Shown here: positions 2,565 through 38,400 of the stretch, one piece after another
Layout of the letters: each line of letters starts with the position of its first letter
How positions within the stretch are numbered: position 1 is the first letter of the stretch
Assembly: GCA_963978545.1 (NCBI GenBank)
Contig: OZ021727.1
Coordinates: 56,308,487 to 56,372,486 of the forward strand
Length of the DNA: 64,000 nucleotides
Source: Linyphia triangularis
Taxonomy: Eukaryota > Arthropoda > Arachnida > Araneae > Linyphiidae
Direction: 5' to 3'
Notes under the pieces: generated by a model
Told to the model about the DNA's origin: nothing
What the model saw: only the letters and a program-made list of their open reading frames with translations
Databases searched by the model: none
Made by a program: the position numbers and the translations under genes

Positions 2565-4533
2565 ACTAGCTGAATACCCGTGCTGCTCTACGAAATTTTA
2601 CCTTATGCATTTTAGCAATCAAAAGACATTCATTTATTTTACACTTCAGACGCTTGCTTCCATTTCGATCCCGACAATTTGAATTATCAAAATAGGAACT
2701 TTCCTTTGTTGATATTTTTTCCAAAATTAATATTTGAGAATATATATTGGAAATGAGACATTTGAATATCCCTCGTTTAGAACACTTTGGATATTTTTAA
2801 TAATAACTAATTTTTAATAACTAATTTCTTCTATATTTGCCCTTCTTAACATTTGCCCCAAATAACAGAATTGTGATAACATTAGAAACATTTTGGATAT
2901 CCCTCGTTTGGAACGTTTAACCCCTTTTCCACCCCTTAATGAGAGTTAATCTTGATCAGAACAGCTTACTTTTTTTTATGTTTGGCTTTTTTGTCATTTG
3001 CACCAATTTTCAATGTTGTGACCATATGGGAAATGGGACATTCGAATATCCCTCGTTTGGAACGTTTAACCCCTTTTCCAACACTTAAAGTGGGTTAATC
3101 AAGATTGGAATAGCTTAATTATACTACGTTTGTTGACATTTGTATCAGTTTTCAGAATTGTGACCAAATGGGAAGTGGGACATTCGAATATTCCTCGTTT
3201 GGAACGTTTAACCCCTTTTCCACTTCTTAAAGAGGGTTAATCAAGATCGGAATAGCTTACTTTTTCTATGTTTGGCTTTGTTGTCATTTGCACCAATTTT
3301 CAGAGTTGTGACCATGTGGGAAATGGCACATTCAAATATCTCCCGTTTGGAACATTTAACCCCTTTTCCACCCTTTAAAGTGGGTTAATCGAGATCAGAA
3401 TAGCTTACTTTTCTACATTTGTCTTTGTTGTCATTTGTACCAATTTTCAGAGTTGTGACCAAATAGGAAGTGGGATATTCGAATATCCTTCATTTGAAAC
3501 GTTTAACCCTTTTAAGTGGGTTAATTTAGATCGGAATAGCTTCTTTTTTCTATGTTTACCATTGTTAATATTTGTACCAATTTTCAGAGTTGTGAACAAA
3601 TGGGAAGTATGAGATTCAAATATCCCTCGCTTGGGACGTTTAACCCCATTTGGATCCCTTAAAGTGGGTTAATCGAGTTCGGAATAGCTTACTTTTACTA
3701 TATTGGTCTTTGTTGTCATTTGCACCAATTTTCAGAGTTGTAACCAAATGGGAAGTGGGACATTTGAATATCGCGCGTTTAGAACACTTAACCCTTTTCG
3801 ACCACTTAAAGTGAGTTAATCGAGATCGGAATGTCTAACTTTTTCTATACTTGTCTTTGTTGACATTTGTCCCAACTTTCAAAGTTGTGACCAAATAGCA
3901 AGTGGAACATTCGAATATCCCTCGTTTATAACGTTTAACCCCTTTTCGACCCCTTAAAATGGGTTAATCGAGATCAGAATAGCTTACTTTTTCTATATTT
4001 GTCTTTGTTTGCATTTGCGCCAATTTTCAGAGTTGCGACCGAACGGGAAGTTGTAAATTCAAATATCCCGCGTTTGGAACGTTTATCCGCTTTTCAACAC
4101 TTTAAAATGGGTTAATCGAGATCAGAATAACTTACTTTTTCTATGTTTACCATTGTTAATATATACACCAATTTTCAGAGTTCTGACCAAAGGGGAAGGG
4201 GGGACATTCGAATATCCCTCGTTTAGAATGTTTAACCCCTTTTCGATCCCTTAAAGTGGTTAATCGAGATCGGAATAGCTTACTTTTTCTACGTTTGTCT
4301 TTATTGATATTCGCACTAATTTTTAGATTTGTGACGATATGGGAAGTAGGACATTTGAATATCCCTCGTTTGGAACATTTAACCCCATTTCGACCCCTTG
4401 TGAAGTGGGTTAATCGAGATCGGAATAGCTTACTTTTTCTATGTTTACCATTGTTGATATTTGTACCAATTTTCAGAGATGTGGGAGAATTAGTGATGAG
4501 TGAGTCAGTGATGGCTTTGCCTTATATATATAG
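2565..4533. mobile_element. Non-autonomous repeat element with internal ~147-bp tandem array
   Basis: The stretch opens with ACTAGCTGAATACCCGTG and a following TCTACGAAATTT. The same head, diverged, recurs at 47677, so it marks the end of a dispersed element. The body is a head-to-tail array. Its far end has GTGATGGCTTTGCC followed by a TATATATATAGAG stretch. A conserved head, a minisatellite core and a distinct tail resemble Helentron-type non-autonomous elements (HINE/pearl-like). No terminal hairpin or protein was identified, so the class remains open. The ORF at 4256-4678 simply reads through repeat copies. Confidence 0.65.
2745..4490. repeat. Tandem array, period about 147 bp, ~11 copies
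   Basis: Each unit carries GGACATTCGAATATCCCTCG, then GGAACGTTTAACCCCTTTTC, GTGGGTTAATCGAGATCGG, AATAGCTTACTTTTTCTA, and CACCAATTTTCAGAGTTGTG. The GACATTCGAATATC block recurs near 3039, 3179, 3330, 3474, 3612, 3757, 3906, 4054, 4202 and 4349. Copies differ from one another by roughly 10-20 percent by eye, so the array is not freshly amplified. Confidence 0.92.
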
Positions 4534-4852: not shown

Positions 4853-5284
4853 CAGGGTGGCCACAGAACCGGGAAAACCTGGAAATCAGGGAAATGTCAG
4901 AGAGCTTTCAGATTCTAGAAAAAATCAGTTAACTTACTAAAATTTTATGAAAATCAGGGAAATTTTGTATTGTTTAAGGCACGTTCATCCATATTTTGGC
5001 GCTATTTACATGGAGGTTTGTAGTGGTAAGCCATTAGAAGTTTAATGTTATGGAATAATTTAAACTTTTTATTATGAGCAAAACTATTTTTTAAAAAATT
5101 GCATATTATCTCTTTAGCATACATGTTCTATTTGATCAGGGTGCCTAGATATCTGAAAAACCTAAGAAAATTAGGGAAATTTGGAAAAAAGTTTGCCCTA
5201 AAATCAGGGAATTTTTGAGAAATCTGTCGGGGAAATCAAGGAATTACCAGGGAACTTTTTTTCCTGTATTTTGTGGCCACCCTG
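4853..5284. mobile_element. MITE with CAGGGTGGCCACA terminal inverted repeats (hAT-like)
   Basis: The left end CAGGGTGGCCACAGAA and the right end TTTGTGGCCACCCTG form terminal inverted repeats. The subterminal parts are rich in the short words AGGGAAAT and TTCCCTGA in opposite orientations on the two sides. About 430 bp, with no ORF. The flanks are T-rich (TATTTTTT / CTTTTTTT), so a target duplication is only weakly visible. A second copy lies in inverted orientation at 44130-44551 and an eroded piece lies near 17270. The CAGGG start is typical of hAT elements. Confidence 0.85.
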
Positions 5285-5733: not shown

Positions 5734-5756
5734 TCAGAAAACTTTGATAAAAAAAC
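5734..5756 (+). other. ATG10: Probable 5' UTR end and splice acceptor of ATG10
   Basis: A run of T ending in TTTTTTTCAG immediately precedes AAAACTTTGATAAAAAAAC and then the ATG10 start codon. This fits a 3' splice site joining an unseen non-coding first exon to the coding exon. Confidence 0.5.
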
Positions 5757-6308
5757 ATGACTCTAGAATTTGAAAAGTTTAAAACTTATGCTCATGACTT
5801 TGTATCTATATCATCAAAGTTATGTGATGAATGGTTTCTCAGAACTCTAAAAATTGGTGAGATGGACGATTTGTATCTAGAAAAGAGAGTAGTAAAAGCC
5901 AGTAATGAAGTGCCTGAAACCAAAGATCATTCCAATTTGTGTGATGATGAAACAGAACAATTTGAACCAGCAATTACAACATTTGTATACCACATTATAT
6001 ACAGCCAAAGTTACTCTGTACCAGTACTTTGTTTCAATGCGCATCACCAAGATGGCAAATTATTAACTCTTAAAGAAATATGGAAACTGATACCAAATTG
6101 CTACACAGATGCATCTGATGACAAATGGAATATGCTGACACAACAAGAACATCCAAAATTAGGTATTCCATGTTTTATGATTCATCCTTGTCATACACAG
6201 GAATTAGTTTCCCCTTGTTTGACTTCAAATTATATTATAACTTGGTTGAGTATTGTTGGACCTGTAGTCGGATTGACTTTATCTTTAGAATATGCAAAAT
6301 TTACGTAG
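5757..6308 (+). CDS. ATG10: Ubiquitin-like-conjugating enzyme ATG10
   Basis: E2-like enzyme that receives ATG12 from ATG7 and transfers it to ATG5, an essential cytosolic step in autophagosome formation. It has 183 residues, against about 220 in human ATG10, in one uninterrupted exon. Diagnostic blocks are YHIIYSQSYSVPVLCFNA (residues 78-95), DGKLLTLKEIW, TQQEHPKLGIPCFMIHPCHT and WLSIVGPVVGL near the C terminus. The catalytic cysteine is Cys145 in the HPC motif. The start at 5757 is 23 bases after a polypyrimidine tract plus CAG acceptor, so an upstream non-coding exon is likely. A Met-initiated start here gives a normal N-terminal helix (MTLEFEKFKTYAHDF). The middle (residues about 50-70) is acidic and less conserved. 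An AATAAA signal lies 54 bp past the stop. Confidence 0.96.
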   Translation: MTLEFEKFKTYAHDFVSISSKLCDEWFLRTLKIGEMDDLYLEKRVVKASNEVPETKDHSNLCDDETEQFEPAITTFVYHIIYSQSYSVPVLCFNAHHQDGKLLTLKEIWKLIPNCYTDASDDKWNMLTQQEHPKLGIPCFMIHPCHTQELVSPCLTSNYIITWLSIVGPVVGLTLSLEYAKFT

Positions 6309-6361
6309 TGATAATTGCAATATTTGAAGAAGCTTGAGTACGTGTTAATGTTTTAATCTGC

Positions 6362-6367
6362 AATAAA
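6362..6367 (+). terminator. ATG10: Polyadenylation signal of ATG10
   Basis: Canonical AATAAA, 54 bases after the ATG10 stop codon. Further AATAAA-like words follow downstream, so the exact cleavage site is not fixed by sequence alone. Confidence 0.6.
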
Positions 6368-7319
6368 ATAATCAAATTAAAATATTATTTAAAAATTATC
6401 TTTTATTATCAAAACATTAATGCTAAATAAATTTATGGCATTATTTTTCCTTTTATTTTGCATATTATGAATCATTAAAGTTTTTATATTTTTCTGTCTT
6501 GTATAAATGAAATATCTATGTATCATTTACCCTACAATTGAGCTGTGGTACTGTAACTGACTTATAAAACTGCATTCTTTTATTAAAAAAATATATTTTT
6601 GCATGTGTTTTGAGTATTTGCAAAATCCAAGTAAAATTAGTTTTAAATAGTTCTAACTTTTCTAGGCAATAATTCTTTTCTTCAACTGAAATGTGAGTTA
6701 TTTTAATATATTTACATCTAGTTTTTTTATAGTAATTTTAGTTTCTTCTCTGTCTTATGAAAACAAAAAAACATTTGGAATTGTAGTTATATGTAGATAA
6801 AGGCTAAAATAATATGCAAGTGGTAACTTGAATCTGGTATTAAATATGTTCTCTGCGAGTCCTTTCTAAATTTAAATTTTGATGCCTTTGTATAACTGTT
6901 GATAAGAGCTGTCAAACACCATAAAGTGAAATCGCTTAACATGAAGTCCCATTTGACGCAAAATACAAGTTTCCTGTACGATGAAGCTTAAAATTAACGT
7001 TAATTTATTTGTTTTACATGAAATTCCTTTTAAGATTGCTCTTCAAAACACTTTTTTTATATGATCTTTATTATTTGAGAAGAAATTTAAGGTGTTATGA
7101 AAACATTCCTCAGGATGAAACCCTAGGAAACAGCAAAAATGCTGAGTGGTCAAATATCAAGAAAATCGTTATGAAATTAACTGATTTTGGCTCTAATTTA
7201 TGTGGCATTCCTCCAGAAACTGGTTTTGTGACATCACGTACCTCTCCAGTACCCAACAGTAAGTTTAGAAACTAAAGTCGCATAAACTCGGCCACATTTG
7301 CATATTGAATCTTGTCAAT

Positions 7320-18500: not shown

Positions 18501-21500
18501 TTTGATTTCACAAATACAAATGTACTTACTCTAAGCTCAACCATCTCTTCCTGTTCCTTGGCCTTGTATGAAGTATAGTCCTTCTCTAATCTAAAAATAA
18601 AATTTCATTTTTTAACAAACTACTTTTATAAAACATTCTGTTCATTAAATTTTATGATTTATGGTAGTTTACTTTTGAATTAATATGGAAATTTACAAGA
18701 GGTGAAACACATAAAAAAACATATATTTCATAATAAAAACAGAGTTTCCGAAAACAAAAATCTATTACTTTTTCATTTTCTTGGGACTATATTTCACTTG
18801 CATAGCTAAATTTATAAGATAATCTGGATCGGCTTCACATTTGGCAGGCATTTCTTTTTGAAAGTACTAAAAGATTTTAAACCAATTAAAATCATCATAA
18901 AGTAACATAACAAATAAAAATTATTATTTTATAATATGAATTTCAAAATTGATTCTACAACCTATAATTCAACATTTCAAAATTAACAGTGTATAAAAAA
19001 ATTCAAGGTAAGAAAACATATAATTTAGCTAAGTAAGATATTTTGTAAAATTCTTTACACAAATAATACTTTTTTTTAATATAAGAGGCTATACTAACCC
19101 TCAACATTCCTTCCATATCATGTTGAAGCAAATCCTCTTTACAATATTGCAAAATAGCAATTCCTATTCGAAAGATCATTTCCATTCCCTAGGGAGAATA
19201 AATATAAATATTATAATACAACTCACAAACTGCAGTAGATAAATACATAGAATTTGTTTGAGAAGTAATCTAAATTAATTACTTTAACTTTACTCATTGA
19301 ATTGATGGAAAAACATTTGTAAAATTTTTCAAAGAATGTTATCATTATTGTTAATTGATTAATTTCTGTAGCTTGGAGGCAAATTGCTATAAAGTCTGCA
19401 ATTAAAAGTAAAAGCATTTACAAACATAGTTTAATGATAGTCTCAAATATCTTTCAATGGAAATAATCACAAACATATACTTATAAAATGACTTCTGGCG
19501 TTAGGGAAGAAATACACAACTGAAAAGTGACAGAATAATTTAAATGCAATGTACAAGTTTTAATTTTATTTTACATTCAATTGACTAAAAAATTAGTTAC
19601 AATCAATTGCTGTTATTAACACTAACAACAACTTAAAATGTTAATTATTCATAACTAACCTATGAAAATACTTAAAAAGTATTACATACAAGCTAGAAAC
19701 AAAAAAAGAAATTCACGCAGAAAAATCTAATTCAAAAGGAATATTGACAATTCTTTACCTCAGACAAAAAGAGATCCATAACTCTGCAGGCTAGGTGTAA
19801 AGATAATGAAGAAGTAAATAATGTCAAAAACCAGGACGAAGCATACATGGACGTGTGAAAACTCTGGGCTTGGAAATGCATGTGAAGTTCTGGAATTTGT
19901 TCCTGATATAAAAAAGAGTGAATACTTTAAATGTTTTGAAATAAAATATGAGAACATAACACCAACATTTAAAAAAACATATCAAAATAAAATGGAAAGA
20001 TGATGAACATTAAAAATTAAAATGTAACTCATGCCAATAAGCATTAAATGTATTTGATGAACCTAATATTGCAGATAAGTTATTAAATGATTAAAGTAAT
20101 AATTATGCTACAGTTTATTTTCTGATTTAATTTAATTAATACAAAAATATCTACATTTAAAAATTTAATTAAATGGAATACATTTATTACACACCTGAAC
20201 AATACACTCCAGCTGATACATGCAAAGTCCTAGCTCAGCCATACTAGGTTTGTACATTTCTCTCAGTCGATAGTCCTCCATTAGTCTCACCATTACAACA
20301 AAAGCATCTTCTTCAGGCATCTAGAATTTAATTATGAAAAAGATGACATTATTTAGTAATTTTAAACAAAGATCGAATCAGTTATTGGTCAAATAATTAA
20401 ATTATACTCTATAAGTGGAAATAAAACTTTTCTTTATAATAGTGTAAATTTTATCCAAGACATTTAATTTATATTTTTGCTTTAAAAAACAGCTAATGTC
20501 TCTGAAAGGGATATTTTGATTCGGAAAATATTCTTTTCAAAGACATTATATTACATATAACAAAAAATAGAGTTATATAGGAATTTTATACTTTACACAA
20601 AGAGGATATAAATCCTAGGGCAAATAGCAATTCGGATACAAAGAAAAAAAAAAAAAAAGTATAATATATTTACTAATTTTTAACTAAAAGAGTTATAGTT
20701 GAACTCCTGAAAATACCCCATACACATTTCTCAAATGTAGCATTATATGATTATCGGTATTCATTAATTCAAACTTTTTTTTTCGAGCAAATCAAATGCA
20801 GTAAAATTTATCAGCTGTACACACACATCATATTATGATAAATAAATTTGATCTGAAGCAAAATAAAAAAGGAACAAATATTTTTATGACAAAACCCTTG
20901 ACAATTAGTCAAAAATTAATTTTGTATGTTCAAGATTTTAAACAAATTATTATTTCGGTTTGTTCATACCTGTAGTAACAGCAATCCAACAATGAAAGCG
21001 CTGCCTTGGCAATAACCAACTTCTCTATCATGCAAAGAGTAAGCTTTCATGACATTGAACAAACTTTCTTGACCTGGTCCGTCTTTCTCACGAAAGAATT
21101 CATGTTCGGGGTATGTTCGAGCAATGTCCCTGATAATGACCTTCTCACATGGAGACGCACTTTTAAGAAAGTCCGTATAAAGTTCACGGGCAGGACAGTT
21201 TTGGGCATTACACAGAAGTTGCCACACAATGTTTCGGATGTGGTTAGGTATCCCCCTTCTAACAAGATCCTGCAAAAATATTGACACAATTAAACAAACC
21301 TGAGCCTTAAAAATCGTGATACATCAATTTTAAGCACATATTGAAATTTTAATTAATGTTCAAATTATATTGCATACTTAAACTTCAGAGAAGACAACTT
21401 AAATTTTTTTTAGTATTTGGTTCCAGATTATTCAATTTTGTTAAATTTACTAAATGTCTTTAAAAATGCATGTATTTATTAGTGATATATATATAAAGAG

Positions 21501-24500
21501 AGGAGATAGCCATAATATATAGATAAATCAAAACAACTCCATAAAAATACTACACCTACCCAAAAGTCAAAAAGCTCAACATTTAACAAAAACTTTTTGC
21601 AACATAATTTTTAATTCGACAACTCGTTTTCATGATATGGATGCACTATAAGAACATGGTGATTTATGGTAAATTTTCTTGGCTTTATTTGAAGGATATC
21701 GAAAACTTTTGCACAGCTTTATTTGAAGGAATCACACTTTTCAATAGCTTTATAGCAGCCATAATTAGTTTTCAGTTGTTTTATTTTAACTGCAAAAAAA
21801 AAATCACTAGGTCCCTATATGTCCATTGTACCGGTTTAATCTCACTTTTTCAACAGTTTTATAGCAGCCATAATCAGTCTTCAGTTGTTTTATTTTAGCT
21901 GTAAACAGAAATACCAACACAAAAAATCACCTGGTCTCTATGTCAATTGTACTAATATTTTCCAACTAAATATCGGCAAATTAGCAAAAGAAATTTACCA
22001 CCAATTACAGACTTGAATCTATGTTTCAAATTACAGAGATGAGTTTTTTTCCGCCAAGTGGCGGAATACTTTTTTTTTTCTAAAAAATTAAAAAAGCGGA
22101 ATTAAAAAAGAAAGTTCCGCTTTTCTATAATTCCTGAAAAAAATCCGTTTTTCCCGCTTTTTCTATCCCACGGGAAAATCACTTTTTTTCTAAGGCCGAA
22201 TCGCGAAGTAGCTTCACCTTCCGCCTGATCGGAAAATCTACCGCTCAGGGGTCGCATCGCATTCCTGCACCAAATACAAAAATCTACTGAAATGCATTTT
22301 TTTAGTCAGATTGGCGCTTAAACTCGCATTTTATACTTTTTCAATAGAACCGAAATTTGAACCGATTTTTTTCTCTTCTCAAAATGTAATTCACGCGATT
22401 AACGTATATTAATAAAGCGCTTGCTTTCAAGTCTGACATCCACGGAACTATCGTTTATTTACGTTGGTATGTGATGCTCGTTTTCTCTAATCGTTACGCT
22501 GTTCTAACGTCTGCTATTGCCTAGATTTGTGTGGCTTCGACGTGCGTTATTCCTGGGATTTAGATTATTGTCGTGGCCATTTTCGCGGAGTATTACGCAG
22601 ATATAACAGCGCTATTGCTGAAAATTGTTCCGGTGTATTCAGAGCTAACGCTGACATTTACGTTTATGTGATGGTAATTTTTTGCTGAATTCTACCCTGT
22701 TGTAAAATCTGAGATTTGCGCCGATGTTACCGAAAGAATGTCGATATTACAGTGGTGAATTGCGCCATCGACGAGATTTATGTTGTTGTGATGGTAATTT
22801 TCGTCAAGTGTTACGCCGATACAATAGCACTATTGTTGAGAGTTGCTCCGGTATATTTTAGACTCCAATTTTGATATTTCTGTTGGCGCGAGAGTAATTT
22901 TTGCCGAAAGCCATACATCTGATATTACCGAAATTTCCACTAGTATTGTCAAGTAAATATCGAAATTACCGAGATTTGTGCCAATATTGTGGACGCTATC
23001 GCCGATATACACGTTGTTGTGATGCTCATTTTTGCCGATACCTAGATTTTCGCCGGTAATGTAAGCGATATTGCTTATTACTTTCATTAGAGTGATGCTC
23101 ATTTTCACCGAGATTTACGCTAATACAATACCAGCTATTACCGAGATTTTTAACGCCGTTTTGTAGCCATTCGTCTAGACTTCCGTTAATGCGATAGCCG
23201 TGATTAGTGCCTGTTTTAAGATCGATTTTGCTGTTTGATTTGAATCTATGCAGAATTACTCAAATTTTTATATCATTTTGTAAAAAAAAAAAAACAAGCT
23301 TAATGATAGGAATAAAAATTTAAATCGAAAGATTTTTGGTATTTAAAATGTAGATTAAAAATTTAGAAAACTATAAGTTTAATTAAATTAAGCCTGTTTG
23401 TCAATATGGTATAATTGCTGAAAGTTGTTTGACTTGAGGAAATTTTGAAGTTTTTGCCTATTTTCATCGCTTTCACAAGAATTTTTTTTTTTGCTTTGGA
23501 GCTATACCATGCCTGATGACAGCACTAAGTGTATCCCTATATCTAGGTGTCACTATTTTGAACCATTTTTGCTCACGGATAGACAGAGACGGTGCAGTGC
23601 TATAAATGCACATGGAAAACCACAATTTTTTAGCTTAAAATGTATTTTACGTAACATTTTTGAATTTTTGTTTTCAGCTTTTTGATTTTATACCGAACTC
23701 ATCCCTGAAATTAGCCAGTTCTCATGCAGCAAAAGCAACTGATATGCATTTATAAAATTATAGGTAGTATTCGACTCATGATTCAAACAATTAAGTGTAT
23801 GTTTTAGTTTCAACTGATTGTTAAAAATGAAGTATGAGTACAAACAGGCTTTAGTGACAGTGAAAATTTTGCTGATATGTTTCAATGAAAAAAACATCAG
23901 AATATAACCCATTTGCTATTCTCAATCAAATTTAACACCATCTAGACAACGCAATGGAGTGCTTTAAAAAGCAATGCGTAAACGAACGTTTTCCGAGAGT
24001 AGTTAGAAAATGACAGTCCGGGGCCATGGCGGAGCAGCGGAGCAGGGACGGGGGACGATGACGTCACCGGAAGGGGGCGTGACCGGATATGACGTCACAG
24101 GAAGTGATATCACCGGATATGACGTGACCGGAAATCACGTGACCGGAAGTGGAGTTGTTCCCCTCCTGCTGCTGTTTTAGTTTCATTATAAGCTGTTTGT
24201 GTATGACGTCACAGTAGGTATGACGTCATAATGTGTTTTATATTAAAGTTTAGAGCGATGGCAACACTTTTTTTAGTTTCGGTTTATCTAGCAGACGGAG
24301 TTGAGTTGTTCTAGGACTGCTTCTTAGCGAATAAGTTAGAATGATAGGTTTTTATTGCGTGACGTCACAGTAGATGACGTCATAATGTGTTTTATATCAA
24401 AGTTTTGAGCGGTGGCAACACTTTTTAGTTTCGATTTACCTTTAGGATGGAGTTGAGTTGTTCTAGGACTGCTTCTTAGTGAATAAGTTAGAGTGATAGG

Positions 24501-27500
24501 CTTTTATTGCATGACGTCACAGTAGGTATGACGTCATAATTTGTTTTATATCAAAGTTTAGAGCGATGGCAACACTTTTTAGTTTCAATTTACCTTTAAG
24601 ATGGAGCTGAATTGTTCTAGGGCTGCTTCTAAACGAATAAGTTAAGAGTGATAGATATTTTTACTAGTGACGTCACAGTGGGTATGATGTCATTATATGT
24701 TAAAATTTACGTTTTAAGTGATGATAACACTAGATATATACCAAATTTAGTTTTCAGGTTTTGGCAACGAGTTCTGATCGGTCAGCTAAATGCTCGCTTG
24801 TGACTGATAAGTTTTAAACATGTGACTAAAAGTTAACTTCTGATTGACTGTTTGGTTTTCTAGCGAGTTACTTACATATCCTTTAATCAAGTTAAAATAC
24901 CTGCAACAAAGTTACACAAATAAAAAAAAAATAAAAAAATGTTACATTTGAAAAGTTAATAAAAGTGAAGGCCATTTGCTAAGGGTCAAAAAGAACCCTA
25001 ACCCCGAGCTACACGTGACATTTCAATATTTTACCAAACAATTGTTAAAATATCGACTATCGGACGTTGCCTTCATGGTAACTCATCTACCCACCCCCCT
25101 TCCCTAACTAATTTTGAATAAGTTAAGACTTTAGAATTACAATTAATAAATTTTGAAAAATTATTTATTAAAGGTGAGGACCCACCTCCAGCCCGATACC
25201 TCTTTTAGGAAGAATTGGTACCGCCTCACTCCACCCTAACAAAAAAAAAATCTGTGAAAAAAAAGCACGAAGTATTAAACACGTCTTTCACACTCAGGTA
25301 TCCAAGTAGAAATGGCGAGACGGCAACAGGTAGCGTCTATATATGAGGGGTGATCACGTGACTTCACCGACCAATCAGGTTTCACGGTAGAGGGTGCTAC
25401 TGACTATCGACCCGTCAGAAGGGAGGGGAGCGAGACTAGGGATGTTTCAACACGCTTCAACGCGTTTGCGAGTTGAGTTGTTGTGTAACGATCTTGCTTG
25501 AAACAGTTAAAGTGATAGATAATTTGTTCGTGACGTCATAGTGTAGCGAATGGGTTTTTAGCGTAGACAGTTGTTGCAATTGGAGTAATTATGAAATTTA
25601 TTAAATATAAAGATAATATTTAGTAATAATTATCAGATTTTATTATTATTATTATAAAAAATAAACTTATAAAAAAAAGTGAACGTGAAAATTTACTTTG
25701 CGAATAAAAATCATGTCTTTAAAATGTGTACGAATATCACTAAATAAGAGAAAAAAGTAACATACTTAAACTCTTTAAAATAAATAACTTTAACATTAAC
25801 GTAAAAAATTTACTTTTCACATAAAAATCACTTTAAAATGAGTAAAAATATCGCTAAATAAGAGAAAAAAAAGTAACTTACTTAAAATTTCTAAGATAAA
25901 TATTTAACCTTTACACGAAAATTCCCTTCATATATAAAAATCACGACTTTAAAATATGACATGCAAGAGAAAAGTAACGTACTTAAACTTTCTACGACAA
26001 ATAACTTTAACATTAACGTAACATTTTACTTTACACATAAAAATCCCGACTTTAAAATATGTAGAAATACCGCTAAATAAAAGAAGAAAAAAAAAGTAAC
26101 ATACTTAAACTTTGTACGGCAAATAACTTTGACATTAACGTAAAAAATTTTCTTCACATATAAAAATCACGACTTTAAAATGTAACGTGTAAGAAGAATT
26201 AGCATACTTAAAATTTCTACGACAAATAAATTTAACCTTTACGCGAAAATTTACTACATATATAAAAATCATGTATTTAAAATATCGCTGAATAAAAGAA
26301 AAAAGTAACATACTTAAACTTTCTACGACAAATAACTTTAACATTAACGCAAAAATTTACTTTACACATAAAAATCACGACTTTAAATTTGACATGCAGG
26401 AGGAAAGTATAACATACCTATAATTTCTACGACAAAGAATTCAAACATTGCCATTCATGTCTTTAAAATGTATAATGACAACTCTAACTTTTAGAAAAAA
26501 GAAACACTAAAAATTTACAAGGCAAAGAATTTAAAATTGAACGTGAAAATTAACTTCACATGTACAATCATACTCTTATATCAACGATAAATAAGATAAA
26601 AAAGAAGCTCTAAAAATTTATAAGGCAAATAATTTAAATAATACGCGAAAATTTACCACACATATAAAAATTATGTCTTTCAAATGTGTAAGAATAACGC
26701 TAAATTAGAGAAAAAGAAATACTAAAAATTTATAAGGTAAGGAATTGAAACAATATGCGAAAATTTATTTCACGCATAAAATTTTTATCTTTAAAATGTG
26801 TAAGAATAATGCTAAATTAGAGAAGAAAAAAAAAAAAAATAACATACTTAAACTTTCTTCGACAACAATTTAAACAATACGCGACATTTTCATACACAAT
26901 TATTTTCTTAGGTTAATGTTAAATAATGGGAAATTTAACAGAATAAAAATTTCAAAGATAAAGAATTTTAACCTTTACACGAAAATTTACCTCACAAAAA
27001 TATCATATCCTTAAACTTTAACGTGACAATTTACTCTTCATATACAATTAAACTCTTAGGTTAATGTTAAATAAGAAAAAAAAATAATATACTTAAAATT
27101 TCTAAGATAAACATAACGTAAAAATTTCGTATCATATGTTTAAAATGTAACATATAAGAGAAAAAAAACTAACATACTTGAACTTTCTATAGCAAAGAAT
27201 TTAAGCATTAGCGTAAAAATTAACTTTACATATAAAATTCACATCTTTAAATGGGAAGATAAGCAGGTGACGGTAATTAGCCAATCAGGGTAGCGGTAGG
27301 TGATACGCCATTCGCCGGCATTTTTAGATCGGAGGATGAGTCACGCTAAAACTTGTTGGAACAGGTCGGGAGATTTGTACAGCAAGAACAACAGCATCGA
27401 CGCGCAAGCAGCGGGTGATGCTGTGATGTGTCAGCAGGTCTTTGAGATTATCGTTTTCCTACTTTGCCGTTTTCATAATGAAATGTTTGTGAAAACTTGG

Positions 27501-29931
27501 AATGAATAAAGTGGATTTCAAAGACATATTAGTAAGTGAAGGTAGAATTCGCATGGACTTTCTTCCAAAAAGTAAGATTCACTTGGAGAATTTAAGATCA
27601 TTTCTACTTGAAAACTTTTCTATTATTTAAAACATTGAATATTGTTCAAACTCAGTGGGATTATATGCTACAATACGGGTAAAACTTAACAAAATTGTTA
27701 CATAGAAGAAAAATAGTAAGAGATTTAAAATAAATATTAGATATAGATACTCCAAAGAAAAAATTTCACCTCTACTTTTCAATCGGAAAATCAATACAAG
27801 TTGGAAATTTATGTTACTTCAAGAAAGACTTAGACAATTTACTTTGTAATAATATACGGTAAGGTGTCGTATTAACTCGTGCAATACATGCTGACTAAGG
27901 TTTATTTTACTTGAAAGGTGAATTGGGGGGAAATATTAAATAAATTGTAGATATTAAATACATTATAGATATGCATTCAAGTTTTGAAAATCACCTGCAA
28001 GACTTTTAAAACATCTTAAGATAAATTGAAAGAAACTTTTTATACTCTGAAAGGAAATCACAAGTAATTTAGTTAACTTTTTTCATGGTAACACTCATAT
28101 TCAACGACATGTTTTTAAAATTTAACCTTCTTTACATGATAATAGTTATAAATTTTTTCAATCTCAGATGCGATATACTATTATTTCTAACATATATGTT
28201 ACGAATTGTGTAAAGTTTTTAAAAGAGTATATGCAAATCACCAATCAGAAACATAAAAATCTAACATCAATCAAACACACTAAAATAATAAGATATTTTC
28301 CTTAGTGGAAATAGTTAACTACTCATGTGATGGAATGTACTTAGAAAATTTAAATACTGAAAAAAGTTTGCTAGGCAAACTTAAAGAATATATATTTTTT
28401 TTCTTGTGAAAAACTAGCATAAATTTGAAAAATATAGAGTTTGTTACTACGTAAAATTGAACATCATCTGGACAAACTAAATTATACATGAATTTTTTTT
28501 ATTTGAGAGGTGCTGACAATATATCATTAATACAGAGATTTTTAACTTCCACCCATAATTTCTAAATAACTTATACATAAATTTCAGAAAACTGAAACGG
28601 AATGTGTTTTACAAGACGCTTATTTTGTAAGATGAATATTCAATATTAATATAACTGAGCAAAGTTCATTACGGAAAAAACTTGTAAAAGATACTTATAT
28701 TTTGAAAATAGTTTGAAATATCCTTTTAAATTTATGAATGCTCGCTTTCGAAAGACACAAATAAAACTGATATTACACATGATAATTAACACATGCATAA
28801 CATTAATCAAACAAAGTGGAATTTTTATTGCTTGTGACCGATAACTTTTCAGTGAAGCAGAACTTACATAGGAAATTTGTGCAAACTTTTTCAACTTTTA
28901 AACCAAGTATTATGTAAAATTATAAATTACGATAGGAAATAGCACACTTCAGAATCGGAACAAGTCTTCTAGTTAAGCTAAATTTATTTCTCAAGGAATT
29001 GAAAGCATACCAGACAAGTCCTTATCATTTCGCATCTTTTCTCATGTTGCAAGAAGACATACTTTGTAAAAGATCGTCGTTGCACTTAACAAAAATCAGT
29101 AAAAATAAATGTATTTTCTATGGCAAAGATAAAACTTCACAACTTAATTACTGAAATTTAGCTAAGTTGCATATGGTTTATTCACATAACTCGCATATGC
29201 TTCGAATGTTGAAATATATTTGTCAGTTGAAATCAAACTAATCGAAAATAAATGCTACCTACATTTTCAAGTCGGAAATTACTATTAAATAAACTTTACA
29301 TGTAAAACATTGTCATGTTAAAAAGAAAAATCTACAAAAATGTAAATGATAATTTTACTGTTGGTACATAAATGATGAATAATTTATGATTTTATTCTAG
29401 GCAAACGTTTTATTGTCTAACAGAGAACTTAAACTTTAGCAGAAAAATAAAAAAATACAATTTTTATATCCTATCATGCTTGTCGAAAATTGAATTTATT
29501 AGCTGTTGTAATAGATTTTTATTGTCCAAATTTCTATAGTTTTTCTTCCCGGTGCAATAAAATTAAGTTCATGTGTAATGATTAGGTTTTTTTTTTTTTT
29601 TTTTTTTATGAATCTTATAAATTTAATGAAATTATTATGACCTAAGAGATTGAGTGAACTGAATAAATCAATGATGTAAATTTAAACAGTGACTTGAACT
29701 GATACATACTATAACTGTAAAGAAGTATGACAAAGTGATAGATGAAGTAAAAATAGAAGTTGAATGAAATGTGTTGAAAAAAGTTGAAGACGACAAGAAA
29801 TTCGTAATTGAGAATTATCATTGACTTATATTAACTTCGTTTTTCTTGCTTATGACAAGAAAATACACTCTTTCTTATTAAGAACCAACTTGATATATTA
29901 TCATAGAATGACAATGATGAAATATCTATAC

Positions 29932-29968
<37 letters not shown>

Positions 29969-32368
29969 CTAACTTAGACATAGCAAATTTCTTGAAATTC
30001 ATGTATAATGCGAGAAGTTTTACTGGAAATATAGAAGATACAACATTGAAAGATGTGAATGTTTCGAAGTACTTTATCAGAAATAAAAAAAAAAAAATGC
30101 GCTGAGATTCGCTATAAAAAATTTTAGGAGAAAGTTTAAACAAAATTTAAAATCAAACATGCTTTTAAATGGGAACACAAATATTAAAACTATAGCACAT
30201 TAAACAATTTATATTACGTCATCTCAGTTGTATCAAACTGAATAACATGAAAAACAACCACAAACTGAATAAACATGAAAATTATCAATATATGTGGAAA
30301 AGTTTCCTTTTTTTCACATATAAAAAAAAATAACACATTGACGTACGTTAAGATCACGAAACATGCATAATCATATACCGATAAGAGCAACCAATGTTGC
30401 GGGGAGATATTCACATGATGGTCAATATCCCATGAATAAGTTGATTGATTGAATTTATAATGCTAATTCCAATAGTATTCCACGTAACTTCAACTTCATA
30501 TGTTACACTATAGATATATTTATTTTTCAAATATATTGACTTTCGAAAAATCATCCTTCAATACAAGAATGATAATAGTAAGAATAAAAGAAAAGATACT
30601 AAGCATTGATTTAAAGTGTATTTATTTCAACTTCGCAACAAATCATATGCTTGAAACGAAAATTGCTTCGAACCAAAGTATAACCATCCAATTTCATTGA
30701 TTCCTACAAGGACATTTTTCTCATCTAGTAATTGAATTTTTTTTTTTTCTCATACACATTATAAGTGATGTCTAATCAGGTGTAGAATAGTTGAAGATAT
30801 CCGACCTCTTTCTAAATATTAATAAGTCACTGTTGAAAAACTTATAAAAATTTCAAGTTACACTTAAATTTTTTTTTTTTTTTTTTATATATATTTCAAA
30901 GAATTTTTTCAAATCAATATGTATATTTAAATACTGAAACTTATTCACTTCAATAAATGTATGTTTAAGTTATAAAACTCTTCGTATGTATTGAAAAATT
31001 GTAACTTTTCGTCTTCTTCGTATAAATCGATAACTTATACACTAGTTCTTCATCAATTAATCTTCTAAGTAAATCTTTCAAAGCTAAAAACATACTTATA
31101 GCTTTGCATTTGTAACAAGTTAAATTGTACATGTTTCATGTGAAAGTTACAAAATTTCAGATATTTTCATGGAAAACATATAAAATTTTAATTTCACGAG
31201 AAACATGTACAATTTAACATGTTACAAATGCAAAGCTATAAGTATGTTTTTAGCTTTGAAAGATTTACTTAGAAGATTAATTGATGAAGAACTAGTGTAT
31301 AAGTTATCGATTTATACGAAGAAGACGAAAAGTTACAATTTTTCAATACATACGAAGAGTTTTATAACTTAAACATACATTTATTGAAGTGAATAAGTTT
31401 CAGTATTTAAATATACATATTGATTTGAAAAAATTCTTTGAAATATATATAAAAAAAAAAAAAAAAAATTTAAGTGTAACTTGAAATTTTTATAAGTTTT
31501 TCAACAGTGACTTATTAATATTTAGAAAGAGGTCGGATATCTTCAACTATTCTACACCTGATTAGACATCACTTATAATGTGTATGAGAAAAAAAAAAAA
31601 TTCAATTACTAGATGAGAAAAATGTCCTTGTAGGAATCAATGAAATTGGATGGTTATACTTTGGTTCGAAGCAATTTTCGTTTCAAGCATATGATTTGTT
31701 GCGAAGTTGAAATAAATACACTTTAAATCAATGCTTAGTATCTTTTCTTTTATTCTTACTATTATCATTCTTGTATTGAAGGATGATTTTTCGAAAGTCA
31801 ATATATTTGAAAAATAAATATATCTATAGTGTAACATATGAAGTTGAAGTTACGTGGAATACTATTGGAATTAGCATTATAAATTCAATCAATCAACTTA
31901 TTCATGGGATATTGACCATCATGTGAATATCTCCCCGCAACATTGGTTGCTCTTATCGGTATATGATTATGCATGTTTCGTGATCTTAACGTACGTCAAT
32001 GTGTTATTTTTTTTTATATGTGAAAAAAAGGAAACTTTTCCACATATATTGATAATTTTCATGTTTATTCAGTTTGTGGTTGTTTTTCATGTTATTCAGT
32101 TTGATACAACTGAGATGACGTAATATAAATTGTTTAATGTGCTATAGTTTTAATATTTGTGTTCCCATTTAAAAGCATGTTTGATTTTAAATTTTGTTTA
32201 AACTTTCTCCTAAAATTTTTTATAGCGAATCTCAGCGCATTTTTTTTTTTTTATTTCTGATAAAGTACTTCGAAACATTCACATCTTTCAATGTTGTATC
32301 TTCTATATTTCCAGTAAAACTTCTCGCATTATACATGAATTTCAAGAAATTTGCTATGTCTAAGTTAG

Positions 32369-32407
<39 letters not shown>

Positions 32408-35400
32408 GTATAGATATTTCATCATTGTCATTCTATGATAATATATCAAGTTGGTTCTTAATAAGAAAGAGTGTATTTTCTTGTCATAAGCAAGAAAAAC
32501 GAAGTTAATATAAGTCAATGATAATTCTCAATTACGAATTTCTTGTCGTCTTCAACTTTTTTCAACACATTTCATTCAACTTCTATTTTTACTTCATCTA
32601 TCACTTTGTCATACTTCTTTACAGTTATAGTATGTATCAGTTCAAGTCACTGTTTAAATTTACATCATTGATTTATTCAGTTCACTCAATCTCTTAGGTC
32701 ATAATAATTTCATTAAATTTATAAGATTCATAAAAAAAAAAAAAAAAAAAAAAACCTAATCATTACACATGAACTTAATTTTATTGCACCGGGAAGAAAA
32801 ACTATAGAAATTTGGACAATAAAAATCTATTACAACAGCTAATAAATTCAATTTTCGACAAGCATGATAGGATATAAAAATTGTATTTTTTTATTTTTCT
32901 GCTAAAGTTTAAGTTCTCTGTTAGACAATAAAACGTTTGCCTAGAATAAAATCATAAATTATTCATCATTTATGTACCAACAGTAAAATTATCATTTACA
33001 TTTTTGTAGATTTTTCTTTTTAACATGACAATGTTTTACATGTAAAGTTTATTTAATAGTAATTTCCGACTTGAAAATGTAGGTAGCATTTATTTTCGAT
33101 TAGTTTGATTTCAACTGACAAATATATTTCAACATTCGAAGCATATGCGAGTTATGTGAATAAACCATATGCAACTTAGCTAAATTTCAGTAATTAAGTT
33201 GTGAAGTTTTATCTTTGCCATAGAAAATACATTTATTTTTACTGATTTTTGTTAAGTGCAACGACGATCTTTTACAAAGTATGTCTTCTTGCAACATGAG
33301 AAAAGATGCGAAATGATAAGGACTTGTCTGGTATGCTTTCAATTCCTTGAGAAATAAATTTAGCTTAACTAGAAGACTTGTTCCGATTCTGAAGTGTGCT
33401 ATTTCCTATCGTAATTTATAATTTTACATAATACTTGGTTTAAAAGTTGAAAAAGTTTGCACAAATTTCCTATGTAAGTTCTGCTTCACTGAAAAGTTAT
33501 CGGTCACAAGCAATAAAAATTCCACTTTGTTTGATTAATGTTATGCATGTGTTAATTATCATGTGTAATATCAGTTTTATTTGTGTCTTTCGAAAGCGAG
33601 CATTCATAAATTTAAAAGGATATTTCAAACTATTTTCAAAATATAAGTATCTTTTACAAGTTTTTTCCGTAATGAACTTTGCTCAGTTATATTAATATTG
33701 AATATTCATCTTACAAAATAAGCGTCTTGTAAAACACATTCCGTTTCAGTTTTCTGAAATTTATGTATAAGTTATTTAGAAATTATGGGTGGAAGTTAAA
33801 AATCTCTGTATTAATGATATATTGTCAGCACCTCTCAAATAAAAAAAATTCATGTATAATTTAGTTTGTCCAGATGATGTTCAATTTTACGTAGTAACAA
33901 ACTCTATATTTTTCAAATTTATGCTAGTTTTTCACAAGAAAAAAATATATATTCTTTAAGTTTGCCTAGCAAACTTTTTTCAGTATTTAAATTTTCTAAG
34001 TACATTCCATCACATGAGTAGTTAACTATTTCCACTAAGGAAAATATCTTATTATTTTAGTGTGTTTGATTGATGTTAGATTTTTATGTTTCTGATTGGT
34101 GATTTGCATATACTCTTTTAAAAACTTTACACAATTCGTAACATATATGTTAGAAATAATAGTATATCGCATCTGAGATTGAAAAAATTTATAACTATTA
34201 TCATGTAAAGAAGGTTAAATTTTAAAAACATGTCGTTGAATATGAGTGTTACCATGAAAAAAGTTAACTAAATTACTTGTGATTTCCTTTCAGAGTATAA
34301 AAAGTTTCTTTCAATTTATCTTAAGATGTTTTAAAAGTCTTGCAGGTGATTTTCAAAACTTGAATGCATATCTATAATGTATTTAATATCTACAATTTAT
34401 TTAATATTTCCCCCCAATTCACCTTTCAAGTAAAATAAACCTTAGTCAGCATGTATTGCACGAGTTAATACGACACCTTACCGTATATTATTACAAAGTA
34501 AATTGTCTAAGTCTTTCTTGAAGTAACATAAATTTCCAACTTGTATTGATTTTCCGATTGAAAAGTAGAGGTGAAATTTTTTCTTTGGAGTATCTATATC
34601 TAATATTTATTTTAAATCTCTTACTATTTTTCTTCTATGTAACAATTTTGTTAAGTTTTACCCGTATTGTAGCATATAATCCCACTGAGTTTGAACAATA
34701 TTCAATGTTTTAAATAATAGAAAAGTTTTCAAGTAGAAATGATCTTAAATTCTCCAAGTGAATCTTACTTTTTGGAAGAAAGTCCATGCGAATTCTACCT
34801 TCACTTACTAATATGTCTTTGAAATCCACTTTATTCATTCCAAGTTTTCACAAACATTTCATTATGAAAACGGCAAAGTAGGAAAACGATAATCTCAAAG
34901 ACCTGCTGACACATCACAGCATCACCCGCTGCTTGCGCGTCGATGCTGTTGTTCTTGCTGTACAAATCTCCCGACCTGTTCCAACAAGTTTTAGCGTGAC
35001 TCATCCTCCGATCTAAAAATGCCGGCGAATGGCGTATCACCTACCGCTACCCTGATTGGCTAATTACCGTCACCTGCTTATCTTCCCATTTAAAGATGTG
35101 AATTTTATATGTAAAGTTAATTTTTACGCTAATGCTTAAATTCTTTGCTATAGAAAGTTCAAGTATGTTAGTTTTTTTTCTCTTATATGTTACATTTTAA
35201 ACATATGATACGAAATTTTTACGTTATGTTTATCTTAGAAATTTTAAGTATATTATTTTTTTTTCTTATTTAACATTAACCTAAGAGTTTAATTGTATAT
35301 GAAGAGTAAATTGTCACGTTAAAGTTTAAGGATATGATATTTTTGTGAGGTAAATTTTCGTGTAAAGGTTAAAATTCTTTATCTTTGAAATTTTTATTCT

Positions 35401-38400
35401 GTTAAATTTCCCATTATTTAACATTAACCTAAGAAAATAATTGTGTATGAAAATGTCGCGTATTGTTTAAATTGTTGTCGAAGAAAGTTTAAGTATGTTA
35501 TTTTTTTTTTTTTTCTTCTCTAATTTAGCATTATTCTTACACATTTTAAAGATAAAAATTTTATGCGTGAAATAAATTTTCGCATATTGTTTCAATTCCT
35601 TACCTTATAAATTTTTAGTATTTCTTTTTCTCTAATTTAGCGTTATTCTTACACATTTGAAAGACATAATTTTTATATGTGTGGTAAATTTTCGCGTATT
35701 ATTTAAATTATTTGCCTTATAAATTTTTAGAGCTTCTTTTTTATCTTATTTATCGTTGATATAAGAGTATGATTGTACATGTGAAGTTAATTTTCACGTT
35801 CAATTTTAAATTCTTTGCCTTGTAAATTTTTAGTGTTTCTTTTTTCTAAAAGTTAGAGTTGTCATTATACATTTTAAAGACATGAATGGCAATGTTTGAA
35901 TTCTTTGTCGTAGAAATTATAGGTATGTTATACTTTCCTCCTGCATGTCAAATTTAAAGTCGTGATTTTTATGTGTAAAGTAAATTTTTGCGTTAATGTT
36001 AAAGTTATTTGTCGTAGAAAGTTTAAGTATGTTACTTTTTTCTTTTATTCAGCGATATTTTAAATACATGATTTTTATATATGTAGTAAATTTTCGCGTA
36101 AAGGTTAAATTTATTTGTCGTAGAAATTTTAAGTATGCTAATTCTTCTTACACGTTACATTTTAAAGTCGTGATTTTTATATGTGAAGAAAATTTTTTAC
36201 GTTAATGTCAAAGTTATTTGCCGTACAAAGTTTAAGTATGTTACTTTTTTTTTCTTCTTTTATTTAGCGGTATTTCTACATATTTTAAAGTCGGGATTTT
36301 TATGTGTAAAGTAAAATGTTACGTTAATGTTAAAGTTATTTGTCGTAGAAAGTTTAAGTACGTTACTTTTCTCTTGCATGTCATATTTTAAAGTCGTGAT
36401 TTTTATATATGAAGGGAATTTTCGTGTAAAGGTTAAATATTTATCTTAGAAATTTTAAGTAAGTTACTTTTTTTTCTCTTATTTAGCGATATTTTTACTC
36501 ATTTTAAAGTGATTTTTATGTGAAAAGTAAATTTTTTACGTTAATGTTAAAGTTATTTATTTTAAAGAGTTTAAGTATGTTACTTTTTTCTCTTATTTAG
36601 TGATATTCGTACACATTTTAAAGACATGATTTTTATTCGCAAAGTAAATTTTCACGTTCACTTTTTTTTATAAGTTTATTTTTTATAATAATAATAATAA
36701 AATCTGATAATTATTACTAAATATTATCTTTATATTTAATAAATTTCATAATTACTCCAATTGCAACAACTGTCTACGCTAAAAACCCATTCGCTACACT
36801 ATGACGTCACGAACAAATTATCTATCACTTTAACTGTTTCAAGCAAGATCGTTACACAACAACTCAACTCGCAAACGCGTTGAAGCGTGTTGAAACATCC
36901 CTAGTCTCGCTCCCCTCCCTTCTGACGGGTCGATAGTCAGTAGCACCCTCTACCGTGAAACCTGATTGGTCGGTGAAGTCACGTGATCACCCCTCATATA
37001 TAGACGCTACCTGTTGCCGTCTCGCCATTTCTACTTGGATACCTGAGTGTGAAAGACGTGTTTAATACTTCGTGCTTTTTTTTCACAGATTTTTTTTTTG
37101 TTAGGGTGGAGTGAGGCGGTACCAATTCTTCCTAAAAGAGGTATCGGGCTGGAGGTGGGTCCTCACCTTTAATAAATAATTTTTCAAAATTTATTAATTG
37201 TAATTCTAAAGTCTTAACTTATTCAAAATTAGTTAGGGAAGGGGGGTGGGTAGATGAGTTACCATGAAGGCAACGTCCGATAGTCGATATTTTAACAATT
37301 GTTTGGTAAAATATTGAAATGTCACGTGTAGCTCGGGGTTAGGGTTCTTTTTGACCCTTAGCAAATGGCCTTCACTTTTATTAACTTTTCAAATGTAACA
37401 TTTTTTTATTTTTTTTTTATTTGTGTAACTTTGTTGCAGGTATTTTAACTTGATTAAAGGATATGTAAGTAACTCGCTAGAAAACCAAACAGTCAATCAG
37501 AAGTTAACTTTTAGTCACATGTTTAAAACTTATCAGTCACAAGCGAGCATTTAGCTGACCGATCAGAACTCGTTGCCAAAACCTGAAAACTAAATTTGGT
37601 ATATATCTAGTGTTATCATCACTTAAAACGTAAATTTTAACATATAATGACATCATACCCACTGTGACGTCACTAGTAAAAATATCTATCACTCTTAACT
37701 TATTCGTTTAGAAGCAGCCCTAGAACAATTCAGCTCCATCTTAAAGGTAAATTGAAACTAAAAAGTGTTGCCATCGCTCTAAACTTTGATATAAAACAAA
37801 TTATGACGTCATACCTACTGTGACGTCATGCAATAAAAGCCTATCACTCTAACTTATTCACTAAGAAGCAGTCCTAGAACAACTCAACTCCATCCTAAAG
37901 GTAAATCGAAACTAAAAAGTGTTGCCACCGCTCAAAACTTTGATATAAAACACATTATGACGTCATCTACTGTGACGTCACGCAATAAAAACCTATCATT
38001 CTAACTTATTCGCTAAGAAGCAGTCCTAGAACAACTCAACTCCGTCTGCTAGATAAACCGAAACTAAAAAAAGTGTTGCCATCGCTCTAAACTTTAATAT
38101 AAAACACATTATGACGTCATACCTACTGTGACGTCATACACAAACAGCTTATAACGAAACTAAAACAGCAGCAGGAGGGGAACAACTCCACTTCCGGTCA
38201 CGTGATTTCCGGTCACGTCATATCCGGTGATATCACTTCCTGTGACGTCATATCCGGTCACGCCCCCTTCCGGTGACGTCATCGTCCCCCGTCCCTGCTC
38301 CGCTGCTCCGCCATGGCCCCGGACTGTCATTTTCTAACTACTTCCGAGAGATGATTGAGACCCAGAAATTCCTAGAATACAGCACGACAAACAAGGCGTG

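Follow-up and report, generated by a model that had tools for sequence, protein, structure and literature searches.

The window analyzed here is a 64,000-bp stretch of the Linyphia triangularis genome (C6:56308487-56372486), and the genome searched comprises 1.35 Gb in 369 contigs. The window contains a giant palindrome inside a TBC-domain gene that is encoded on the minus strand and resembles Evi5. A RabGAP-TBC exon lies on one side of the palindrome and a likely upstream coding exon on the other; the insertion is thus intronic, as the first-pass annotation had placed it. The limits of the whole element, comprising two arms and a loop, are corrected here to 23,998-38,342 (14,345 bp). The arms differ by two substitutions and by homopolymer lengths, with a third mismatch at the loop edge, and a BLAST alignment over the arms and the loop edge has 99.79% identity across 7,175 columns. 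An inverted repeat this long cannot be chance; the near-perfect palindrome noted earlier is real. Coordinates are collected in Table 1.

The element is a foldback without its own transposase, in line with the earlier description. The longest stop-to-stop frame that overlaps it is 97 amino acids (aa). Intact frames for rve integrase, C5 protease and packaging ATPase are absent from it, both in the list of open reading frames (ORFs) and in tblastn searches with Maverick proteins, so we file it as a non-autonomous derivative rather than as a Maverick. Host-gene capture in the arms was rejected. There is no long ORF, and the inner arm is similar only to Maverick DNA, in comparisons that did not include a general host-gene search.

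The ends and flanks place the element in a known group. Thirty-eight elements were paired by hand from 100 listed termini, and 29 of these end pairs plus one further element served for flank comparison; the resulting 30 copies include the window element and a 4.64-kb element. When the ends are parsed as AGTAGTTAG...CTAACTACT, an exact 6-bp duplication is present in 29 of the 30 copies. The sole miss is half of a composite, which as a whole has one exact 6-bp duplication. The duplications follow the pattern NNYRNN in 24 of the 29 exact cases. Further exact 6-bp duplications flank the outer and nested units of a C4 element (TGGATG and TACGTC). The 8-bp duplication proposed by the first-pass annotation fits only 2 of 30 copies, and the actual duplication at the window is TCCGAG. 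The direct repeat TTCCGAGA is present there, and its extra letters are chance matches to the element ends AGT...ACT.

The first-pass annotation had matched the ends to no superfamily. An excerpt of PMC8097293 describes vertebrate Mavericks with (AGT)2...(ACT)2 ends and 6-bp duplications, which is the signature seen in the window. The end motif given there, (AGT)2...(ACT)2 or (AG)3...(CT)3, describes the window ends, although the other copies were chosen by matching ends and the motif is not independently tested in them. The exact terminus has no match among viral contigs.

An unrelated terminal inverted repeat (TIR) transposon of the hAT, P/Galileo, Mutator or Drosophila Foldback type, making 8-bp duplications, would be compatible with TTCCGAGA in the window alone. 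The very long, internally repetitive inverted repeats also recall Drosophila Foldback and Galileo of the P superfamily (excerpt of PMC3573991). Those elements differ in termini, duplication length and enzyme family. Most Foldback and Galileo copies lack a transposase, and their arms are far shorter than those of the spider palindromes. The flank counts already contradict this origin and led us to drop 8-bp-duplication superfamilies (hAT/P), and same-ended elements encode an integrase, a C5 protease, a packaging ATPase and a B-type polymerase (the last below the Pfam cut-off). We consider an unrelated transposon close to negligible as an explanation.

Two same-ended elements of ~18 kb (L015/L016 and L017/L018) encode a Pox_A32/Adeno_IVa2 ATPase, a Peptidase_C5 and an rve integrase with a chromodomain. 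The integrase is a single 347-aa ORF in L017. The expectation of a P- or Mutator-type transposase was rejected, as these relatives carry Maverick genes instead. For one polymerase piece, 7,396 of the 8,000 sequences scored are homologues, and some of these are named DNA-directed DNA polymerase or bear PF03175; a solved-structure search with one polymerase piece returned weak unrelated names only. A 435-aa Maverick ORF, a candidate for the double jelly-roll major capsid protein, lacks a Pfam domain; 2,423 of 5,677 candidate sequences are homologous to it. Its best named homologues are from spiders (F54H12.2-like), with Stegodyphus, Araneus, Uloborus and Parasteatoda among the nearest. The only transposase ORF met is a 448-aa CENP-B/Tc5-type DDE_1 ORF within the Maverick copy of L015 (8412-9758), which is missing from the L017 ORF list. 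A retrotransposon integrase C-terminal piece occurs within another Maverick copy (L018, 57-731).

The foldback arm has DNA in common with these Mavericks. Besides the right-end matches in Table 1, the arm start matches left TIRs (arm 1-696 at 92% with L015; 83% over 405 bp with L017), and a short segment is in common with the Maverick middle. There is also a weak polymerase trace (E 5e-4) at arm 4,887-4,982. The relic of a 224-aa Maverick ORF lies ~984 bp from the palindrome center in the window; in L015, this ORF is found ~977 bp away from the left terminus. These distances suggest that the window family is an old derivative folded in the TIR. The TIR itself is no longer recognizable at the center, where comparison of inner-arm DNA with the left TIR gave weak AT-rich matches only. 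The octamer TGACGTCA, the CRE/ATF consensus, also occurs in the Maverick TIRs of L015-L018.

Together, the same ends, the 6-bp duplication, the terminal 1.25 kb in common with gene-bearing Mavericks and the decayed Maverick ORF tie the element to Mavericks. On sequence grounds, the window element is a palindromic Maverick derivative and not a member of an unknown superfamily. It also resembles Mavericks/Polintons in length, but has no intact gene and consists entirely of inverted repeat, with ~7-kb arms against a TIR of ~0.7 kb.

Table 1. Features of the palindromic element and its host gene in the window (window positions).
Feature	Position	Strand	Details
ORF with RabGAP-TBC exon of the host gene (Evi5-like), downstream of the insertion	20964..21323	-	TBC domain match
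Left target site duplication TCCGAG, 6 bp	23992..23997	+	flank comparison
Left arm	23998..31137	+	7,140 bp; starts AGTAGTTAG
Outer arm 1-1253	23998..25250	+	matches Maverick right ends: 90-93% identity L018, L011; 87-91% in two pieces L016
Nine copies of self-complementary octamer TGACGTCA, first 700 bp of arm	24059..24675	.	~0.01 expected after shuffling
Degenerate ~100-120-bp tandem repeats within arm	25688..26832	.	
Frameshifted relic of Maverick 224-aa ORF	29737..30155 (arm 5,740-6,158)	+	63% nucleotide identity; tblastn 8e-11
Central loop	31138..31199	.	62 bp
Right arm	31200..38342	-	7,143 bp; terminates in CTAACTACT
Right target site duplication TCCGAG, 6 bp	38343..38348	+	flank comparison
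Likely upstream coding exon of the same host gene, near 38,800	38730..38880	-	motif scan; limits approximate

The element belongs to a large family. A 27-base terminus marker occurs at 376 + 350 places (<=3 mismatches), an inner-arm marker at 960 + 957 places (1,917 in total) and a Maverick ATPase marker at 153 + 148 places (301 in total), whereas the reversed-marker control of each had 0 places. Termini and inner-arm markers at hundreds of places exclude that the window is the only locus. The earlier suggestion of gene-bearing relatives and many other insertions is borne out genome-wide; that of an unknown class is not, as the relatives carry Maverick genes. The genome holds roughly 860-960 palindromes, about three per Maverick ATPase marker site. 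If all are full length at ~14.3 kb each, they make up an estimated ~1% of the genome. The 38 hand-paired elements include 30 that span 13.0-15.3 kb. Twenty of them, measuring 13.0-14.8 kb, were examined at the midpoint: 14 are palindromic there, one is off-center foldback DNA (C10:1126602) and five are Mavericks. A 600-bp inner-arm stretch has 1,056 candidates, of which the best 40 are 100% identical (rounded) to the window, which points to a recent origin for part of the family.

Assembly of long palindromes is difficult, and false inverted copies can stem from hairpin adapters. A collapsed or duplicated hairpin read could therefore have made the mirror arm. Such an artefact is very improbable, because two different flanks with a 6-bp duplication occur at 29/30 copies and the window arms differ by substitutions and homopolymers. 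Moreover, the loops differ between copies, and spacings recur among 45 inverted pairs. These pairs, together with 10 singles, make up the 100 inner-arm places listed without mismatch, where a single may have an unlisted partner carrying a mismatch.

Fresh palindromes derive from either half of a present-day Maverick. L021 is a 4.64-kb palindrome in which the left Maverick end is folded inside the ATPase gene, with 6 bp in common at the fold. The 13.47-kb palindrome C3:30049817 has the polymerase half in both arms and 5 bp in common at the fold. Each of its arms was read at the end, at the center and over a 2-kb stretch; the two 2-kb stretches align across 1,999 columns, with a single gap and without mismatches. 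Five elements (L094-L098) are the closest opposed marker pairs (<6 kb) among 100 ATPase places listed, and all five are palindromic at the center. L096 folds in the 224-aa ORF. The folds of L094, L095, L097 and L098 lie in the left TIR, where they coincide with or adjoin pairs of TGACGTCA octamers able to form a hairpin. The L095 element (C1:87082300-87096284, 13,985 bp) has the exact 6-bp duplication CCCCTC. Its center and outer ends match the Maverick left half, and its length fits that half gap-free, as judged from the center and ends compared. A terminus of the TIR-folded palindrome at L098-L102 (C9 around 13131054) lies 7.57 kb leftwards, and none was found in the right mirror stretch.

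Secondary folds also occur within the 14.3-kb family, with 8 bp in common in L026, 7 bp exact in L069 and 10 bp with one mismatch in L022. Nine of the 13 folds examined have 5-10 common bases, and the loops of these nine are 15-601 nt. Simulated random folds have at least 6 common bases at a frequency of 0.005 and at least 5 at 0.013.

The two halves of a copy are more alike than different copies are. Within foldbacks (n=16 including the window), the left end differs from the right by 0.47% in the terminal 299 bp, against 9.3% between elements, and the own partner is strictly the nearest for all 32 foldback ends. The inner arm differs by 0.77% within (n=14) versus 2.0% between. Larger changes are also symmetric. 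Arm 6,121-6,838 is deleted on both sides in C6:63738456 and C2:53412320. A 21.3-kb palindrome (L012-L014, C12:60596144-60617399) has a complete terminus joined to arm ~3,670 symmetrically on both sides. Nested insertion was rejected as the origin of this palindrome because its inner-end flanks are inverted, not direct.

Palindromes can also be combined with other elements. At C9:41489254-41503886, palindromes of 9,987 bp and 4,644 bp adjoin each other, separated by just two bases (GT). One exact GAGATA pair flanks this composite, with no duplication at the inner joint; the longer palindrome was assessed from its ends, right half and center, leaving out 41490601-41494043. Most simply, two linear molecules became joined ahead of a single integration event. 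On C4, a 14.5-kb foldback interrupts the integrase gene of a Maverick. The two parts of the interrupted gene overlap by two codons, which equals the 6-bp duplication, and the gene is whole in another Maverick copy.

We read the window element as a snap-back, defective-genome-like, gene-less Maverick/Polinton palindrome that would be moved by Maverick enzymes, and give this reading a probability of about 0.8. Protein-primed replication of the adenovirus/phi29 type displaces long single strands. While a Maverick replicates, a 3' end, displaced or nascent, may snap back on a 5-10-bp complement upstream or, alternatively, at the TGACGTCA hairpins of the TIR. The snapped-back end would copy its own strand to the terminus, giving a hairpin, and a full copy of the hairpin would be a palindrome that carries, at each end, a replication origin and a site for the integrase. 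Palindromes without genes of their own could then be copied by the Maverick polymerase and inserted by the Maverick integrase. One arm would be remade from the other at each round, which would keep the arms identical, make changes symmetric and let the two ends be swapped together. Judging from their architecture and the marker ratio, the palindromes may behave like defective-interfering Maverick genomes.

A different birth of the same family is conceivable, in which host end-joining or recombination between two Mavericks made the palindromes and gene conversion keeps their arms identical. Variants include head-to-head fusion, sister-chromatid fusion and one copy inserting into another. It is generally well known that inverted repeats lying near each other undergo gene conversion, and both an end-to-end joint (the C9 composite) and a nested insertion (the C4 foldback) exist. 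A different birth would also account for three of the 13 folds (L089, L077 and L080), which have no common word. We nevertheless consider it unlikely. The nine word-bearing folds have loops as fold-back priming predicts, and the C3 palindrome, built from one half, is without mismatch over the columns aligned. Given 9.3% between elements versus 0.47% within, any conversion that followed insertion must have been almost complete in the majority of sampled copies.

Several observations, including the three folds without a common word, weigh against the snap-back reading. The end-matched choice of copies favors whole insertions. Maverick TIRs are also closer within (1.7%, n=5) than between elements, so homogenization of the ends alone is not specific to palindromes. 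In the inner arm, the partner is strictly nearest in only 8 of 28 cases, over a stretch that is short and little diverged. The left and right ends of C13:60111810 differ at 16 of 272 positions, and the 17.8- and 12.3-kb copies have outer arms that diverge by 5.5-6.5%, so homogenization is not universal. Because L095 and L098 represent the same palindrome (99.7%), the 13 folds are not all independent. The L097 fold has 1 or 7 bp in common depending on the reference, and the center of the window family lacks a known unfolded parent for fold comparison. The polymerase pieces of the Mavericks match DNA_pol_B_2 weakly (E 0.0023, below the Pfam cut-off). The polymerase frame is in several pieces, owing to introns or damage, in the Maverick copies examined, so that a working helper is hypothetical.

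Element lengths raise the question of packaging. The window element (14,345 bp), the C3 (13,472 bp) and C1 (13,985 bp) palindromes and the composite (14,633 bp) are close in size to five Mavericks of 13.7-14.7 kb. Differently built palindromes and a composite near Maverick length hint at a packaging limit, as gene-less DNA has no coding reason for this length. It is possible, if rather doubtful, that the foldbacks are packaged defective genomes of a particle-forming spider Maverick and that a head-full-like limit sets ~14 kb. Palindromes of 7.85, 12.3, 12.4, 17.8 and 21.3 kb count against this, most 14-kb copies probably descend from one ancestor, and the five Mavericks came from a sample restricted to 13.0-14.8 kb. 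Transposon ORFs are inserted in two further Maverick copies, which measure 17.9 and 18.8 kb. For vertebrate Mavericks, the excerpt of PMC8097293 argues for a size constraint from ~10% size variation. The same paper states that Maverick particles have not been observed so far. If packaging holds, the length limit would be genomic evidence for Maverick virions, and the TIR octamers TGACGTCA would double as the snap-back hairpins that give birth to such genomes.

Symmetric defective genomes are known from protein-primed replicons, as in adenovirus left-end duplications. A deletion derivative of the kalilo plasmid forms hairpin and duplex DNA (cited in the excerpt of PMC11071308). Like these snap-back genomes, the spider palindromes have an origin at both ends, an inverted duplication around a short loop and, probably, helper dependence. 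They differ in being chromosomal, in numbering ~900 copies with lineages of their own and in having 6-bp duplications. Foldback inversions in yeast and cancer are likewise short-loop inverted duplications primed at short inverted repeats (excerpt of PMC10622511), but arise from chromosomal break repair and are not mobile elements with two functional termini. No palindromic Maverick was found in the literature searched, which includes the excerpts of PMC6431247, PMC8504770, PMC8097293, PMC11071308 and PMC10622511; an earlier description elsewhere is possible.

Mavericks are thought to be integrated viruses that replicate by protein priming. The ~900 palindromic by-products may be a record of how such molecules are copied, joined and integrated. 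Preserved in this record are snap-back points, an end-to-end joint within one duplication, changes mirrored on both sides and perhaps a limit on length. Giant gene-less palindromes receive a class instead of seeming unknown, and the question of Maverick virions becomes measurable.

The window that holds the TBC-domain gene carries further features. An exon of an OATP-type transporter lies at 1032-1736 on the minus strand, and the plus strand encodes an Autophagy_act_C domain in an ORF at 5751-6308. Between them, a tandem array of a ~148-bp repeat extends over 2897-4483 with about 10.8 copies.

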